A stretch of 40,075 nucleotides of DNA, taken from assembly GCA_937899905.1 (NCBI GenBank), contig CALCCF010000002.1:1-40075 (forward strand), written 5' to 3'. Both the position numbers and the translations under genes were made by a program. The stretch is from an uncultured Phycisphaeraceae bacterium (GTDB lineage Bacteria; Planctomycetota; Phycisphaerae; Phycisphaerales; UBA1924). The stretch's first letter is position 1. Each line of letters begins with the position of its first letter. Below the pieces are notes generated by a model. The model saw only the letters and a program-made list of their open reading frames with translations. It was not told where the DNA came from and ran no database searches. This document shows positions 2 to 8,756 of this stretch, piece after piece.

Positions 2-253
2 CGCAAGCCGGCCGAGGCACACGAGATCATCGCCGACGTCGCCATCGGCCCAAATCTGTGTGTGAAGGACAACGTCTTCCAAGCCGCCTTCATCCTCGTC
101 AGCATCGCCATTGCCGCCGGCATCGGCGCGTTCGTCGCACCACAAGAAATCGGTCCCGCTTGGGGCGCCGTCATGGGTGGCATCGTCGGCCTCATCGCCG
201 GCGCACTCCTGAGCGGCGGCTTGCTCATGGTCTACCGCCTGTTCAGGCACTGA
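2..253 (+). CDS. 3' end of a membrane protein gene cut by the window edge
   Basis: The reading frame is open to the left edge, so this is probably the C-terminal 83 residues of a longer gene. A GTG at 62 could be an internal start giving 63 aa, but coding sequence (…EIIADVAIGPN…) continues in frame upstream of it. Two hydrophobic segments are visible: one of about 20 residues beginning at QAAFILVSIA, and a glycine-rich one (GGIVGLIAGALLSGG). The protein ends with a short basic tail (YRLFRH). It is convergent with the terminase gene and stops 6 bp from that gene's stop. I do not recognise the family. A holin-like role would be a guess based only on the neighbouring terminase. Confidence 0.6.
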   Translation, partial: RKPAEAHEIIADVAIGPNLCVKDNVFQAAFILVSIAIAAGIGAFVAPQEIGPAWGAVMGGIVGLIAGALLSGGLLMVYRLFRH

Positions 254-259
254 GCCAAA

Positions 260-1720
260 TCACAAGTAACTCCCTGCTTTCAGTGATCCCGGCCGATCCA
301 GATTCGTCACCAGATACCGCAGCGCATCCACCGCGTGATCCGGCCCGTCCTTGGCCGGCTCCTCGCTCATCGGCCGCTGCATGTCGTAGTGATACCGCTC
401 CAGGCTCTCGATCAGGTGCTCGCACGCCGGCGAGATGAACAGCGTCGGCTCGCCGTCGGCGGGTCGTAGCCGAGCGCGGAGCAAGTCCAGCCCCGCGCGC
501 ACAGTCGTTCGCCGTGCGCGCACGCTCAGCCCGGCCCGCTGGATCTGCTGCGCGTCGCTGAGCCCCGTCTGCGCGTTGCCCTGCCAGCCGGCGGGATCGA
601 TGCCGATCCACTCGGGCTTCGAGTCCTCGTCGCCGAGCCCATCACCCAAAATCGCGTCGATGTGCTCCCCAAGCAAGCACCGGCTCGCCACCCGCTCTCG
701 CACGATGTGCAGCACGCCCTCGGCCGACAGCGCGCCCCACACGATCACCGTCGGCGAGCGATACCCAAAGTCCATGCCCAGCACCCACCGATGCCCCTCC
801 TCGATATCCGGCAACTCGCGCACGTGCACGTCACGATCGAACTCGGGCAGCACCGCATCATCGCTCTTGGGCCGCTCGCAGCGCATCTCGGCGTCCCACG
901 TGCTCAGCGAAACCCGCCCCTTCAGCGACACCGCATCGGCAATGGACAGATGCCCCGAAGGCCTATCAGATTGCTTTGCCGACCCCTGGCACTCCTTGAA
1001 CAGCGGGCAGGTCTCGCAGTCATACCGATCGTCGCAGTGCTCCAAGACATCGACTACGCCCCACTTGTATAACCGGCGCGCCCCATCCTCGCACTGCTCG
1101 ACGACATCACGCATGAGCCCGTGCGCACGGTGCATGGTGCTCAACGCCTCGATCGATCCACGGATCGTGAATTCCTCGCCGTCGTACTCGATGGTCTTGC
1201 TGCGCGTCGTCAGCTGCGCCGCGTCCCACACGGCCGGGTCGAACAGCTCGACTTCGTCGCACCGCAGCTTCTGGATGCGCGTGCCACGGACCGACGCCTG
1301 GCTCTGAGCGAGCAGTTCCAAATGAGAGCCATTGGTAAGCGAGAGCTTCCGATCCGTCACGCGCCCATCGATCAGATCACGAAATGCGGGCATCGAGAAC
1401 AAGTGTCGTAGGTGCGCGTGCATGCGCTGGGCTTGCTCGAGCGAGCCGCCCAGGATGCGCACCTCGATCCCGGGCTTGTACACCATGTCCAGCAGCGTCG
1501 CCACCGCTCCAAGGAAGGTCTTGCCGCCGCCGCGATTGGCCCAGACCACCGCGTCGATCGGGTCGTCCTGCGTATTGCCCAGCACCTCGGGCATGTGGTC
1601 GGCGAAGAACGCGTGCGCGAGGTACCGCCGCGGCATCGCGCTGAGCTGGACCTCCAATGCATCACGGACGCAGTGCGAGAGCTCCTCGACGCTCGCGGGC
1701 CGTTTGGGCGGCGGCGTCAT
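260..1720 (-). CDS. Phage-type terminase large subunit (ATPase plus RNase H-like nuclease)
   Basis: Probable DNA-packaging motor and nuclease, 486 aa. The N-terminal ATPase has a Walker A (RGGGKT, residues 63-68) and a Walker B with catalytic glutamate (LRCDEVEL, D155/E156). The C-terminal nuclease domain has the expected acidic residues: D317 in LGMDFGY, D375 in IGIDPAG, and D461/D465 in GPDHAVDALRYL. Between the two domains sits a four-cysteine cluster (C229, C235, C238, C244), spaced C-x5-C-x2-C-x5-C, which could bind zinc or an iron-sulfur cluster. The ATG at 1720 was chosen because it overlaps the upstream acetyltransferase stop (ATGA). The longer open frame to 1975 is low-complexity Arg/Ala sequence antisense to nothing plausible. 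It is the last gene of a four-gene overlapping operon. No portal or capsid gene is visible. Confidence 0.85.
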   Translation of the reverse strand: MTPPPKRPASVEELSHCVRDALEVQLSAMPRRYLAHAFFADHMPEVLGNTQDDPIDAVVWANRGGGKTFLGAVATLLDMVYKPGIEVRILGGSLEQAQRMHAHLRHLFSMPAFRDLIDGRVTDRKLSLTNGSHLELLAQSQASVRGTRIQKLRCDEVELFDPAVWDAAQLTTRSKTIEYDGEEFTIRGSIEALSTMHRAHGLMRDVVEQCEDGARRLYKWGVVDVLEHCDDRYDCETCPLFKECQGSAKQSDRPSGHLSIADAVSLKGRVSLSTWDAEMRCERPKSDDAVLPEFDRDVHVRELPDIEEGHRWVLGMDFGYRSPTVIVWGALSAEGVLHIVRERVASRCLLGEHIDAILGDGLGDEDSKPEWIGIDPAGWQGNAQTGLSDAQQIQRAGLSVRARRTTVRAGLDLLRARLRPADGEPTLFISPACEHLIESLERYHYDMQRPMSEEPAKDGPDHAVDALRYLVTNLDRPGSLKAGSYL

Positions 1721-2391
1721 GAGGCACCCCGATCGTGCACCAACGCAACCGGCGGATGCGTGAGTGCCGCGAAGGCACGGGCGGCGATGTCGGTGCCCTT
1801 CAGCTTCCGGGCCGAAGCCCAAGTGCGCAAGGCGGGCCCAAGCCCGCTGGGGACGCCGTGCAGCAGATCTCCTGCCGTGAGCGAGTGTGCCTCCAATATG
1901 CGCGCGAGCTTGGCGTCGGCCTTGCTCGGCGGCAGAGTGACGCGCCGCATGCCGGCGCGCTCGAAGAAGGGGCACGCGTGCGCCATCGCGGCGAGAGCCT
2001 CGGTGCGCGGTGTGGGAGGATCATCCAGGTATGCGCGCACGAGTTGGACGGCGATGCCGAGGCCGCGATACCGCGGGTCGACGATCACACGCGAGATGAC
2101 GCGGACCTCGCTGTTCAGGCGACGAGCGTTGGCGCGCTTGTCGGGCGAGTCGTACTCCCCGGGCCACGCAATCGCGCGCCATCGCCCGTTGAGCGTCGGC
2201 ATCGACGCGACGAGGACGGCGATGGTCACGCCATCATCAATGGCGCGCAGGATGCGTGAAACCGGGCCGGGCCTTCCGGCGGCGTAATGGAAACGTGCGA
2301 GCGGCTTGAGGTCGTCGAGCGTTCCAGGCTTGATCGTGGGTTCTAGTGCGGGTGTCAGTTCGGTGAATCGGCGTAGCAGGGTGTCGGCCAC
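1717..2391 (-). CDS. GNAT-type N-acetyltransferase, like the C-terminal half of COG2401
   Basis: Predicted acetyl-CoA-dependent acyltransferase, 224 aa. Motif A is clear at about 98-116 (ISRVIVDPRYRGLGIAVQL), with the R-x-x-G-x-G/A pyrophosphate loop at R107-A114. A following stretch, AMAHACPFFERAGMRRV (135-151), matches the second half of COG2401 proteins (an ABC-type ATPase fused to a predicted acetyltransferase) as I remember them. Here that half is a separate gene starting with GTG at 2391, overlapping the ATPase gene by 37 bp, and its own stop overlaps the terminase start by 4 bp. Translation of the three is therefore probably coupled. The substrate is unknown. The C-terminal 60 residues are not assigned. 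Confidence 0.75.
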   Translation of the reverse strand: MADTLLRRFTELTPALEPTIKPGTLDDLKPLARFHYAAGRPGPVSRILRAIDDGVTIAVLVASMPTLNGRWRAIAWPGEYDSPDKRANARRLNSEVRVISRVIVDPRYRGLGIAVQLVRAYLDDPPTPRTEALAAMAHACPFFERAGMRRVTLPPSKADAKLARILEAHSLTAGDLLHGVPSGLGPALRTWASARKLKGTDIAARAFAALTHPPVALVHDRGAS

Positions 2392-3059
2392 GGAGCGGCT
2401 CCGCGGGGGGCGCGGGCGAGGATGGTGGGCGGCGATGGGCGATCGCCGGGTAGGGGCATCGCGACCAAGAGGTCCGGTCGCAGGGCTTCGAGCGTGTCGT
2501 CCTGGGCGGCGGCGACAACGAGAGAGACGTCATTGGTTCGGCACCACTTGGCAAGGGCGCTCGCAAGCGATCGCGCGGCGACGCGGTCGAGCACGGCGGC
2601 GAACTCATCGATGATGAGCACGCAGCCGGGCGTGCAGCGGTCCATGGCCGCCGCGATAGTCAGACGTGCGCGCTGGCCGGTGCTGAGTGCGCCGGCTGCG
2701 CGCGGGAGCAGCGATGCTTCAGCGAGGCCGGCGGCGCCGAGCAAGCGCAGTGCAGAGGGCAGGTCTTCGCCGATCTGATCGATCGCGGCGCGTCGCCGTG
2801 ATAGATGGGCCGGCGGGTGAACGACGATGCGATCGAGTCGTGCGAGCCTTCGGCGGAGCATGCGTAGCGCGGTGGACTTGCCGCAACCGCTGGGGCCGGT
2901 GAGCAGGCCGACGCCACCCGGTTCGAGCGTCGCGAGGGCCCGTGCGGCATCGCGGGCGGCGCGCAGTGCGGTCCGTCGCGCCGGATCCGCGTCGCCGGCG
3001 GGCAGCGCAAAGAGGGCTCGGGCGTGGGACACGCGATCGGTGGCGGCGCGCTCGTTCAC
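2355..3059 (-). CDS. ABC-type ATPase, like the N-terminal half of COG2401
   Basis: Soluble ABC-fold ATPase of 234 aa with no membrane partner nearby. It shows Walker A GPSGCGKST (55-63), signature LSTGQ (125-129) and Walker B VLIIDE (147-152). The run IDEFAAVLDR followed by EALRPDLLV resembles the pattern I recall for COG2401 (IDEF-x-A-x-LDR). The usual H-loop histidine is replaced: VVAAAQDD has Gln186 at that place. The start is GTG at 3059, whose first base pairs overlap the upstream gene's TGA (GTGA). It overlaps the acetyltransferase gene downstream by 37 bp. It is unlikely to be a transporter subunit; a DNA- or nucleoprotein-related role is an inference from the adjacent terminase. Confidence 0.8.
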   Translation of the reverse strand: MNERAATDRVSHARALFALPAGDADPARRTALRAARDAARALATLEPGGVGLLTGPSGCGKSTALRMLRRRLARLDRIVVHPPAHLSRRRAAIDQIGEDLPSALRLLGAAGLAEASLLPRAAGALSTGQRARLTIAAAMDRCTPGCVLIIDEFAAVLDRVAARSLASALAKWCRTNDVSLVVAAAQDDTLEALRPDLLVAMPLPGDRPSPPTILARAPRGAAPWPTPCYADSPN

Positions 3060-3505
3060 ACCGCGGCCTCCGCATGGAGGCGCTTCCTGGCCATGACGCC
3101 CGCGGTGTTGGCCATGGCCTTGAAGGCGTCGCGGTGCTTGCGGACGTTGTGATAGCTGATGCCCAGCCGCTGGGCGATCTGCCGCATGGGTATGCCCTCG
3201 ATCGCCGAGAGCCGGGCGACCTGGCGCAGCTGGCGTGGCAGTTCGGGCTCCAGGCGGACGGCGGCGTCGAACGAGGGGTCGCAGACGCGGCGGACGAGGG
3301 CCTTCACCCGGCGGCGGAGCTGGCGCTCGGGCGTGCCGAGCATGGCGGCGGCCTCACGGACGGCCATGCCGCGGCCATAGACGGCCAGCAGGAGCTGTCG
3401 CTCGTCGGGGGGCAGGTGGTCGGCGGCGTCGACGATCCGGGTCACGAGGGCCCGGCGTCGCTTGCGTCGCATGTCGAGGGCGGTGTCGTCCAGTCTGGTC
3501 TGCAT
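3056..3505 (-). CDS. Double helix-turn-helix DNA-binding protein (sigma region 4-like)
   Basis: A 149-aa basic protein with two HTH-like segments. The first is around residues 40-75 (GMAVREAAAMLGTPERQLRRR) and the second around 100-130 (IPMRQIAQRLGISYHNVRKH), both similar to sigma-70 region 4 or LuxR-type HTHs. The start is set at the ATG at 3505 because GGAGG lies about 6 bases upstream; the open frame further upstream to 3733 runs through the AT-rich promoter region. It heads the operon with the ATPase, acetyltransferase and terminase, and overlaps the next gene by 4 bp. Position and size would fit a terminase small subunit that recognises DNA. An operon activator is equally possible. I cannot decide between them from sequence. 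Confidence 0.75.
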   Translation of the reverse strand: MQTRLDDTALDMRRKRRRALVTRIVDAADHLPPDERQLLLAVYGRGMAVREAAAMLGTPERQLRRRVKALVRRVCDPSFDAAVRLEPELPRQLRQVARLSAIEGIPMRQIAQRLGISYHNVRKHRDAFKAMANTAGVMARKRLHAEAAV

Positions 3506-3558
3506 GGGTGTCCTCCGCTGGCGGGAAAGGTTTACAAAACAAATCAACCAACGGATAC

Positions 3559-3601
3559 ATTGTCGACTAGATTGAAAACAATTGCAAGGGTATTGTATGG
3601 T
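3559..3601. promoter_or_regulatory. Candidate operator/promoter region between repressor and terminase operon
   Basis: This AT-rich island lies between the divergent double-HTH gene and the S24 repressor. It holds three copies of one pentamer: ATTGT at 3559-3563, its inverse ACAAT at 3578-3582, and ATTGT at 3592-3596. The last two form an inverted repeat with a 9-bp spacer, extended by A-x-ACAAT / ATTGT-x-T. On the plus strand TTGAAA (3572-3577) and TATGGT (3596-3601), 18 bp apart, form a weak -35/-10 pair that the repeats would cover. On the minus strand TTGCAA and GACAAT, 17 bp apart, form another weak pair. It is the obvious place for repressor control of both directions; binding is inferred only. 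Confidence 0.4.
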
Positions 3602-3699
3602 ATCGCCACGAGATGGCGCGCCAGCGAGGACATGGAGCCTAAATTCCATCTTGGCGCTCTTAAACGGCACCCTGTTCGAGGGATACGAAGGACGAGGCC

Positions 3700-4563
3700 A
3701 TGTCCGAGGCAGCCAAGGGTACTGATCGGTCACGCGTGGCTTTTGGTACCACGTTGCGAGACCGTCGACTGCGGCTCGGATTGAGTTTGCGCGAGACGGC
3801 AGAACGTGCGCAATGCACCAAGGGATACCTCTCGCTTCTGGAGCGCGGGAAGCGCGGCGTGCCGACGGGCGAGATGCTCGCCCGGCTTGAGGCTGCGCTC
3901 GATATGCAACCCGGCGGGCTCTCTGAAGTCGTAGAACTCGAGGCGACGCCCAAGCGTGTGCGCGACGAGTTGGCCGAGCGGCGCGAGCAGGCCGAGGCGG
4001 CGCGGCAGCTCGCGGCGCTGCTGCGTGGGGCCGGTCCCGGCGGGCTCGATCGAGCGTTTGAGTCGGGCGCCTTGCAGAAGCTTGTGCAGCGCATCGCGCC
4101 GACGGATGGCGACGGTGCCGGATTGGGCGAGCCGGTGGGGGCGTTGCTGCCGCGCGCGGTGCCGCTCATCAACCTCGTGCCGGCGGGCCGGGCCGCGGAG
4201 TTCACCGATCTCGGATACCCGGCTCGCGTAGCGGATAGCTACGTGGCCGCGCCCGACCTGGCCGACCCCGACGCGTTCGCGGCGCGCGTGACGGGCGACA
4301 GCATGGAGCCGGAGTATCGCGAGGGCGACGTGGTGATCTTCAGCCCGGCGCGAGATGTTCAGAGCGGCATGGACTGCTTCGCGCGGCTCGAGCCCGATAG
4401 CGAGCTGACGTTCAAGCGGGTGTACCTGGAGCGCGGGTCGGATGGGGGGGAGGTCATCCGGCTGCAACCGCTGAATCCGAAGTACCCGGCGCGCATCGAG
4501 CCGCGGGAGTTGGTGGCGGGGCTGTATCCGGCGGTGAGCGTGACGCGACGGGTGGGTGCGTAG
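3700..4563 (+). CDS. XRE-family repressor with S24 (LexA/CI-like) self-cleavage domain
   Basis: Phage-repressor-like regulator, 287 aa. An N-terminal HTH_3 domain (about 15-72, RRLRLGLSLRETAERAQCTK) is followed by a charged linker and a C-terminal S24 peptidase fold. The catalytic dyad is visible as Ser201 in TGDSMEPEY and Lys239 in LTFKRVYL. An Ala162-Gly163 pair in LVPAGRAAEF sits where LexA/CI proteins are cut. Established knowledge: such proteins self-cleave when bound to activated RecA, lifting repression after DNA damage. It is divergent from the terminase operon with a 194-bp gap containing repeated ATTGT elements, so control of that operon and of itself is the simplest reading. A chromosomal stress regulator is the alternative. 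Confidence 0.85.
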   Translation: MSEAAKGTDRSRVAFGTTLRDRRLRLGLSLRETAERAQCTKGYLSLLERGKRGVPTGEMLARLEAALDMQPGGLSEVVELEATPKRVRDELAERREQAEAARQLAALLRGAGPGGLDRAFESGALQKLVQRIAPTDGDGAGLGEPVGALLPRAVPLINLVPAGRAAEFTDLGYPARVADSYVAAPDLADPDAFAARVTGDSMEPEYREGDVVIFSPARDVQSGMDCFARLEPDSELTFKRVYLERGSDGGEVIRLQPLNPKYPARIEPRELVAGLYPAVSVTRRVGA

Positions 4564-7803: not shown

Positions 7804-8721
7804 CTAGCGGGCGCTCTCGAGCGCCGCTCGCAGCTCCTCGAGCGCGACGGTCGCCTGCGAACCTGAACGCATGGCGTAGAGGTCATCAGACAGGAATGCG
7901 ACGTGGTCACCCTTCGTCGCGGAGAGCTGGCCCCAGAGTGGATCGGCGTCGAGCATGGCCTTGGCGGACTCTTCCGGTCCATGGAAGATGACCAGCAGCA
8001 CGTCCGGATCGCGATCGATGACCACTTCCATGCTCAGGGTGGCCAGGCCGCGAAACCTCCGGTGCTCGGTCATGTCTTCGGTGATGAGTTGTCCGCCGGC
8101 GTGCTCGACGAGATTGCCGAGATAGCTATGGGGCATGAACGCATAGAACCCATTCGGTGTGCCGAAGATCGCGAGCACGCTGAAGGGCTCGTCCGCAGAA
8201 CTCGGGGTGCTCTCTCCGGAAAGGTCGGTATTGAAATCCTGGATCCACTCTTCGGCTTCGGCTTGCTTTCCGATGAGCTCACCGAGTGTCCGGGTGTGCG
8301 TCCGAACGTCCTCCAGCGTGTCCGCATCCATCGCGATAACACGTGCGCCCGTGGTCTTCTCGATCTGCGGGATGTGCCGACTCTCAACCGCGCTGACGAT
8401 GACGAGATCAGGGTCGGCGGCGATGAGCTGTTCGATGTTCGGGCCAGCCGCGTGGTCAAGGCCGCCGGCCGTGATGCCCTGCCAAGCCTCGGGCTGGCCA
8501 CTTCGCAGCGCGGGCACCAGCACGGGCTTCACGCCCAGCGCGATGAGCTGGTCGGCCGCGAAGGGGAGCAGCGCGGCGACCCGTGGCGTGTCCGTGCTGA
8601 CGCTGACGGTCTGAGTCGGCGTCGAGGGGGCGGACTCTTCGCAGGCGGGCAGGAGGGCCACAGTGGGGGCCAGAGCGGCGACGAGACAAGTCAGTCGGAG
8701 GCGGTGTCGGAAGATGGGCAT
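7804..8721 (-). CDS. Substrate-binding lipoprotein of an iron/B12-type ABC importer
   Basis: Extracytoplasmic substrate-binding protein of 305 aa (class III, FepB/BtuF fold). The signal peptide ends in a lipobox LLPAC with Cys27 as the lipidated residue. A Ser/Thr-rich linker follows. The two lobes carry family features: RVAALLPFAADQLIALG near the N-terminus, PNIEQLIAADPDLVIVS in the middle, and a C-terminal lobe with DRDPDVLLVIFHG. It is the first gene of the importer operon, with a promoter and a perfect palindrome 47-63 bp upstream of the start. A role in metal-chelate uptake is inferred from family plus operator. No TonB-dependent receptor is present in the window. Confidence 0.88.
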   Translation of the reverse strand: MPIFRHRLRLTCLVAALAPTVALLPACEESAPSTPTQTVSVSTDTPRVAALLPFAADQLIALGVKPVLVPALRSGQPEAWQGITAGGLDHAAGPNIEQLIAADPDLVIVSAVESRHIPQIEKTTGARVIAMDADTLEDVRTHTRTLGELIGKQAEAEEWIQDFNTDLSGESTPSSADEPFSVLAIFGTPNGFYAFMPHSYLGNLVEHAGGQLITEDMTEHRRFRGLATLSMEVVIDRDPDVLLVIFHGPEESAKAMLDADPLWGQLSATKGDHVAFLSDDLYAMRSGSQATVALEELRAALESAR

Positions 8722-8756
8722 TCGGCTCTCTCAACGGTGGTTGGGTCTGGGCCCAG

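Follow-up and report, generated by a model that had tools for sequence, protein, structure and literature searches.

A probable gene transfer agent of Phycisphaerae with packaging and structural operons at separate loci

Introduction

Few gene transfer agents (GTAs) have a known genetic basis: the classification of 2022 has three groups that were exapted independently, two of them alphaproteobacterial (available text of PMC9662315). The same text describes RcGTA and CcGTA as vertically inherited, multi-locus and served by dedicated regulators, and in these respects they resemble the element examined here. That element was studied in a stretch of 40,075 nucleotides from an uncultured Phycisphaeraceae bacterium (assembly GCA_937899905.1, contig CALCCF010000002.1) and in its relatives. 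The stretch (hereafter the window) comprises bases 1-40075 of contig C2, that is, the entire contig, and the assembly consequently holds no sequence to its left. Its terminase locus is probably the packaging and regulatory operon of an element domesticated from a tailed phage, most likely a GTA, that is vertically inherited in Phycisphaerae and has its particle genes in a second operon.

Other described agents offer further points of comparison. Brachyspira VSH-1 and Bartonella BaGTA, which belong to other hosts and are likened to the present element by description only, were domesticated independently and often have GTA genes in more than one place (available portions of PMC9662315 and PMC11841831). 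According to the accessible part of PMC11150451, gafYZ of Caulobacter is under repression by RogA, and GafZ contains a helix-turn-helix (HTH) resembling that of sigma factors. We found no report of a GTA in Planctomycetota in the open PMC literature; in the available text of open papers that pair 'gene transfer agent' with Phycisphaerae or Planctomycetota, the term is confined to a reference, a passing mention or a statement on Rhodobacteraceae. The nearest statement, in the part available of PMC7947584, concerns a predicted Zavarzinella prophage with a TerL near RcGTA-like ones.

Three complete phages, RHph_N1_15, nickie and SSU5, carry ParB genes followed by an ABC gene and then a phrog_886 GNAT gene, the latter two in the same order as in the element. 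TerL and head genes come after the GNAT gene in RHph_N1_15 and nickie, and the SSU5 record stops before TerL. The portal of nickie is of the SPP1 type; its capsid matches GP7 (E=2e-8) better than SU10, to which the likeness is weak (E=2e-4, below cut-off). This phage presents the gene set of the element in contiguous form. Each of the three phages is one contiguous block, whereas the Phycisphaerae element consists of two operons among host genes. The combination of an ABC ATPase fused to an acetyltransferase also defines COG2401, a name of which we found no mention in the literature searched.

A conserved packaging operon

Four minus-strand genes of the window overlap by 4, 37 and 4 bases. They encode a double-HTH protein (HTH2, 3056..3505, read from its ATG) with two predicted sigma-region-4-like DNA-binding domains, an ABC-type ATPase (2355..3059), a GNAT-fold acyltransferase (1717..2391) and the large terminase TerL (260..1720, 486 residues from its ATG). 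A gene for an S24 repressor (3700..4563, plus strand) diverges from them. A sequence-only reading of the window had placed all five genes correctly.

The reference set comprised 101 related genomes, in 97 of which the RecA control was recovered. TerL was matched in 81 and, once the weak partial matches of G085, G094 and G100 were excluded from the count, in 78 at E<1e-20. It is single in each genome save for fragments and two weak extra matches, and the portal described below is likewise single save for fragments. All of the first 20 TerL loci contained HTH2, ABC and GNAT genes, and 17 contained S24. A scan of the genome collection returned 311 stretches encoding TerL relatives, and the best 80 of these 311, which were kept, are nearly all titled Phycisphaerales, Phycisphaerae, Phycisphaeraceae or Planctomycetota. 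Two records titled Cyanobacteria and Leptolyngbya (L178 and L236) also carry this terminase and are probably mislabelled metagenome-assembled genomes.

Gene order was counted where 6 kb or more of sequence was available upstream of TerL, as it was in 60 loci. HTH2, ABC and GNAT genes lay upstream of TerL in every one, so that the order read from the window alone proved to be conserved across Phycisphaerae; this class-wide conservation rules out a chance association. The S24 gene was on the opposite strand in 54 loci, a ParB match (phrog_723, E=5e-15), often a remnant, was present in 34, and a small-terminase-like gene in eight. Most loci of the deeper families follow the order HTH2-ABC-GNAT-ParB-small terminase-TerL, the exceptions being G098 (rearranged), G086 (without ParB) and G222 (without ParB and small terminase). 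In G041, S24 and HTH2 alone accompany TerL. The recurring genes downstream of TerL look host-like. Note that in one locus of family f9 (L072, genome G252) TerL has no adjacent ABC or GNAT gene and lies beside a dnaA-like open reading frame (ORF), with a capsid gene about 17 kb away on the same contig.

ParB and the small-terminase-like gene are missing from the genus of the window, the latter being matched in none of its seven genomes. The name 'small-terminase-like' was given because of position and size; assignment to a recognised family was rejected, with no Pfam match at E<=0.001 for one sequence and no PHROG match below 0.079 for three. Matches occurred in 61 of the 101 genomes, many of them weak, away from TerL and probably HTH noise.

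TerL matched a PHROG terminase (E=1.3e-15) and combines an ATPase with an RNase H-like nuclease. The Walker A Lys and Thr, the DE pair and Asp 317, 375 and 465, which are catalytic residues in this family, are invariant in 22 aligned TerLs, in keeping with the earlier description of both active sites as intact. An insert between the two domains holds four Cys, three of them invariant in the same 22 sequences, and is a possible metal site. On many IMG/VR contigs (L248-L287) the TerL ATPase is about 40% identical and the nuclease part (profile positions ~318-490) forms one or two separate upstream ORFs, for example at L249:5187-5756 and 7842-8744. At the left, the operon is closed by a convergent small membrane-protein-like ORF (2..253, plus strand), which is not part of the element; its relatives adjoin TerL in 5 of 21 loci, all five within the genus.

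A second operon with portal and capsid genes

It had been noted from the window that no capsid gene stands next to TerL. This holds, and the same genomes carry portal and capsid genes in a second operon at another location. The SPP1-portal model gave one match each in 75 genomes (72 above cut-off) and the SU10 capsid model matched in 74 (E=2.5e-88 for the capsid of G068). Weaker extra SU10 capsids in G032, G045, G063, G071 and G079 are probably those of prophages. The HK97 capsid (11 genomes) and HK97 portal (16, of which 13 above cut-off) are sporadic, and neither model matched in the seven genomes of the window's genus. Weak HK97-portal matches in G026, G042 and G086 were considered as a conserved divergent portal and set aside, the neighbourhoods, which look lambda-like, being alike over 20 kb, as in related prophages.

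The conserved order around the portal is portal, scaffold-like protein (PF06810, E=0.0014, below cut-off), capsid, c1, c14, c13 and c4; connector-like and other functions of the last four are guesses from order and size. Profiles of these genes, trained on nine of the same genomes on which they were run, matched the portal in 36 of 38 entries, scaffold, capsid and c1 in 35 each, c14 in 25, c13 in 27 and c4 in 29. The unmatched entries are G222 and G374, whose fetched stretches lie elsewhere, and, for scaffold, capsid and c1, a G004 fragment with the portal front only. Leaving G004 aside, portal, scaffold, capsid and c1 followed one another in that order in all 34 genomes, four of which have an interrupted capsid. 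In the source genome of the window (G000), portal and capsid lie at C19:62799-66001.

In G041 (L104/L105), G086 (L097/L098), G008 (L157) and G023 (L158), an insert of some 11 kb splits the capsid gene at nearly the same position. Except in G041, the two capsid pieces have 13-18 model residues in common, and capsid matches are likewise split in G010 and G072. The G041 insert encodes a large serine recombinase and an Eco57I-type methylase and, by this predicted content, is a mobile element with the capsid gene as its target.

Co-occurrence joins the two operons. TerL and portal were both present in 70 genomes and both absent in 18, with TerL only in eight and portal only in five; for TerL and capsid the corresponding numbers were 69, 18, nine and five. 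All three genes were found in 67 genomes and none of them in 18. Fisher tests gave p=9e-10 for TerL and portal and 2e-9 for TerL and capsid, values that are overstated since the genomes are related; the HK97 capsid showed no link with TerL (p=0.27). These results favour one option of the sequence-only reading, a gene-transfer-like unit.

The two operons also map to the same region. Of the 70 genomes with both genes, 30 have TerL and the portal on one and the same contig. The distance is below 70 kb in 26 of these 30 (8-67 kb, median 37 kb) and 250-651 kb in the rest, although the same-contig requirement biases the distances towards short ones. In the single-contig genomes with both genes (G004, G041, G086, G091 and G098) the distance is 39-63 kb. 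The genes between the operons are mostly host-like.

Furthermore, eight additional genomes with TerL, all but one from outside the order, were tested and every one had a capsid gene; the portal adjoins the capsid in all seven loci fetched from these genomes. The locus of G231 (L084, L309), from another class of the phylum, differs: it has a single strong SU10 capsid match (E=5e-84) and TerL among host-like genes, with no portal seen beside the capsid. It may represent a GTA-like lineage outside Phycisphaerae.

Selection and descent

Purifying selection acts on TerL, portal and capsid as it does on RecA. Median ratios of nonsynonymous to synonymous polymorphism (pN/pS) among the seven congeners were 0.25 for TerL, 0.20 for the portal, 0.22 for the capsid and 0.22 for RecA, with 0.28 for S24 and 0.37-0.45 for GNAT, ABC and HTH2. 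Distance correlations among TerL, portal, capsid and RecA ranged from 0.75 to 0.85 (0.76-0.80 with RecA), and none of 2000 permutations reached them. All five listed GTDB families formed clades in the TerL tree, with the minimum possible number of changes, as did all four in the portal tree. In the RecA tree, f1 and f6 were not clades, with poor support. TerL is thus vertically inherited and follows the host phylogeny.

These patterns bear on the proposal of an ordinary or recently defective prophage. Most of the proteins are phage-derived, the same ABC/GNAT pair stands beside TerL in real phages, and parts of the module occur on IMG/VR contigs (GNAT-TerL in L254; HTH2-like, small-terminase-like and TerL genes in L282). 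However, phylogeny and selection are host-like, genomes hold one TerL and one portal apart from the fragments and weak matches already mentioned, and the operons stand apart with mostly host genes between them. A single-sequence search of IMG/VR returned no relatives, and none of the 57 stretches of an alignment search held the full module. Neither contiguous packaging and structural genes nor a sporadic distribution was found, integrases not having been searched for, and we regard a prophage as very unlikely.

The accessory ABC/GNAT pair

In PHROG searches, complemented by Pfam, the GNAT matched phrog_886 and the ATPase phrog_293/phrog_11143. The two make up a COG2401-like pair, ATPase first and GNAT second; they are split in the window and form a single ORF in 25 of the 60 loci when counted with profiles freed of the other domain. 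The ABC domain was found in all 60, with a Walker A motif in 59, and no permease gene was seen beside the ATPase in the window locus. Depositors named the phage genes matched by the GNAT 'ABC-type ATPase fused to a predicted acyltransferase domain' and 'MK0520 protein, ABC-type ATPase fused...', and alignment of the window's GNAT family with the phrog_886-type protein of nickie gave an hhalign probability of 98 (E=8e-14).

The suggestion that the pair is associated with a packaging motor agrees with its presence in all 60 loci and in phages RHph_N1_15 and nickie. The further suggestion of a new system stands in part: a split ATPase/GNAT pair adjoining a terminase is a known phage arrangement, and the novelty lies in the class-wide domestication of the pair with a separate structural locus.

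The GNAT model (predicted local distance difference test, pLDDT, 91) shows the GNAT fold. Kinship with Mu Mom was considered and rejected, hhalign to the single Mom sequence giving no match. In structural comparison Mom (8bv8) scored Z 12.3 (root-mean-square deviation 3.2, 141 residues aligned), tied with many GNATs (top Z 13.3), and among viral models a phage Mom ranked third; DNA-base modification by the GNAT is only a lead. Anti-phage defence was also rejected, as PADLOC gave matches over partial stretches of two proteins only, namely the ATPase, with mad3 as the best (E=2e-11), and the S24 protein, with HTH_VI as the best (E=2e-8).

Regulation of the two operons

The S24 protein has the features of a self-cleaving repressor, namely an HTH and an S24 domain, an Ala162-Gly163 site and a Ser201/Lys239 dyad, precisely the residues named beforehand. 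They are kept in 59, 59, 57 and 57 of 60 homologues, respectively. Induction of the operon by DNA damage may be envisaged, the argument for it being these conserved self-cleavage residues.

HTH2 had been proposed as a small-terminase-like DNA selector, a role that the results disfavour. Pfam Sigma70_r4_2 was matched in two stretches (E=1e-14, run on the longer ORF 3056-3733), the gene comes first in the operon, across from the repressor, and other families have a distinct small-terminase-like gene next to TerL. Among small-terminase families the only match was one of 29 residues to phrog_7067 (E=1e-4), the best matches being to sigma region 4. The model (pLDDT 94) consists of helices only, in two small domains, the second of which resembles sigma region 4 and response-regulator HTH domains (Z 8-9), a likeness that for helical models may reflect just a common arrangement. 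HTH2 is more readily seen as an activator than as a small terminase and is probably controlled by S24.

Each operon has its own conserved, putative promoter block. Alignment of the seven congeners revealed the first between S24 and HTH2 (3559..3620), a candidate operator/promoter whose 26-base core occurs once per genome in all seven and nowhere else in them. The second precedes the portal; exact matches to its motif were confined to the stretch before the portal in six genomes, and G004 has a match with two mismatches at the same place, with four other two-mismatch matches against 13 for the reversed pattern. No operator of note common to both operons was seen (words of 13 or more bases were not sought), and searches of the congener genomes with the core and the portal motif found no wider regulon.

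Discussion

By analogy with RogA and GafZ of Caulobacter, S24 would be the off-switch of the element and HTH2 its activator. The repressor would silence the divergent operon until inactivated, whereupon HTH2 would be made and would help to turn on the structural operon. TerL would then dock onto the portal and fill heads with host DNA, and the ABC ATPase and GNAT would prepare or license that DNA for the motor, as in the phages of origin. The resulting particles would carry the DNA to other cells.

Three of the six GTA features given in the available text of PMC9662315 were recovered: particle proteins derived from Caudoviricetes, because of the similarity of TerL, SPP1 portal and SU10 capsid; full endogenisation in several loci, because the two operons have other genes between them; and vertical co-diversification with the host. 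Loci tens of kb apart would favour incomplete packaging of the element's own genome. The element differs from RcGTA and CcGTA in its SU10-type capsid and SPP1-type portal, in place of the HK97 models matched in Caulobacter, in its ABC/GNAT pair and often ParB beside TerL, in its S24 repressor and in the phylum of its hosts. Judged from its genes, it is a probable GTA, new in its host class, with a divided locus and an accessory pair.

Several observations weigh against this interpretation. Six genomes have TerL without portal or capsid and five show the reverse, although the latter are drafts of 150-310 contigs and perhaps incomplete. The capsid gene of the source genome (L087/L088, C19:64829-66001) has an in-frame TAA near its start, which, like an in-frame TAG in the G071 capsid gene, reflects either decay or assembly error. 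The G004 portal (L089/L090, L156) is in two parts 67 kb apart, with the rest of the structural operon after the second. The capsid tree is less clean than that of TerL, with f1 (weakly) and f4 as clades and f5 and f6 not. A complete tail or lysis set was not recognised in the window's family, and three tail/fibre-like genes appear only in some f3, f5 and f6 clusters (c41, c45 and c52 jointly in four f5/f6 genomes, c41 also in f3, and c45 also matching two proteins elsewhere). Finally, vertical conservation is no proof of DNA transfer.

Some of these points would suit a packaging module domesticated for a job inside the cell, such as DNA repair, segregation or DNA processing, while the capsid genes decay or are retained for another reason. 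The genomes with TerL alone and those with an interrupted capsid or portal could be so understood, as could the f9 loci, three of four of which have no other module gene near TerL, one lying beside an ORF read as dnaA. Nevertheless, portal and capsid are constrained like RecA and co-occur and co-map with TerL, and the f9 TerL genomes tested also carry a capsid, so that we consider a cell-internal role unlikely. That no tail genes were recognised in the f1 clusters raises instead the idea of a particle with another task, be it killing competitors, disposing of or storing DNA, or release by lysis without transfer. To our knowledge no killing role of a tailless DNA-filled head has been described, and the conserved TerL and portal argue for filling with DNA; such a particle has little probability.

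The GTA interpretation may be extended tentatively, with somewhat less than even confidence, to an ancient, class-wide and independently domesticated agent of divided genome that still transfers host DNA. The COG2401-like ABC-GNAT pair would then be a dedicated packaging-licensing step, and a serine-recombinase element would use the capsid gene as its attachment site, either preying on the GTA or switching it off. A class-wide GTA, if true, would matter for gene exchange in a group that is still little understood and would provide an additional independent case for asking why bacteria retain such machines. It would also make the function of COG2401-like proteins testable by deletion in a packaging system.

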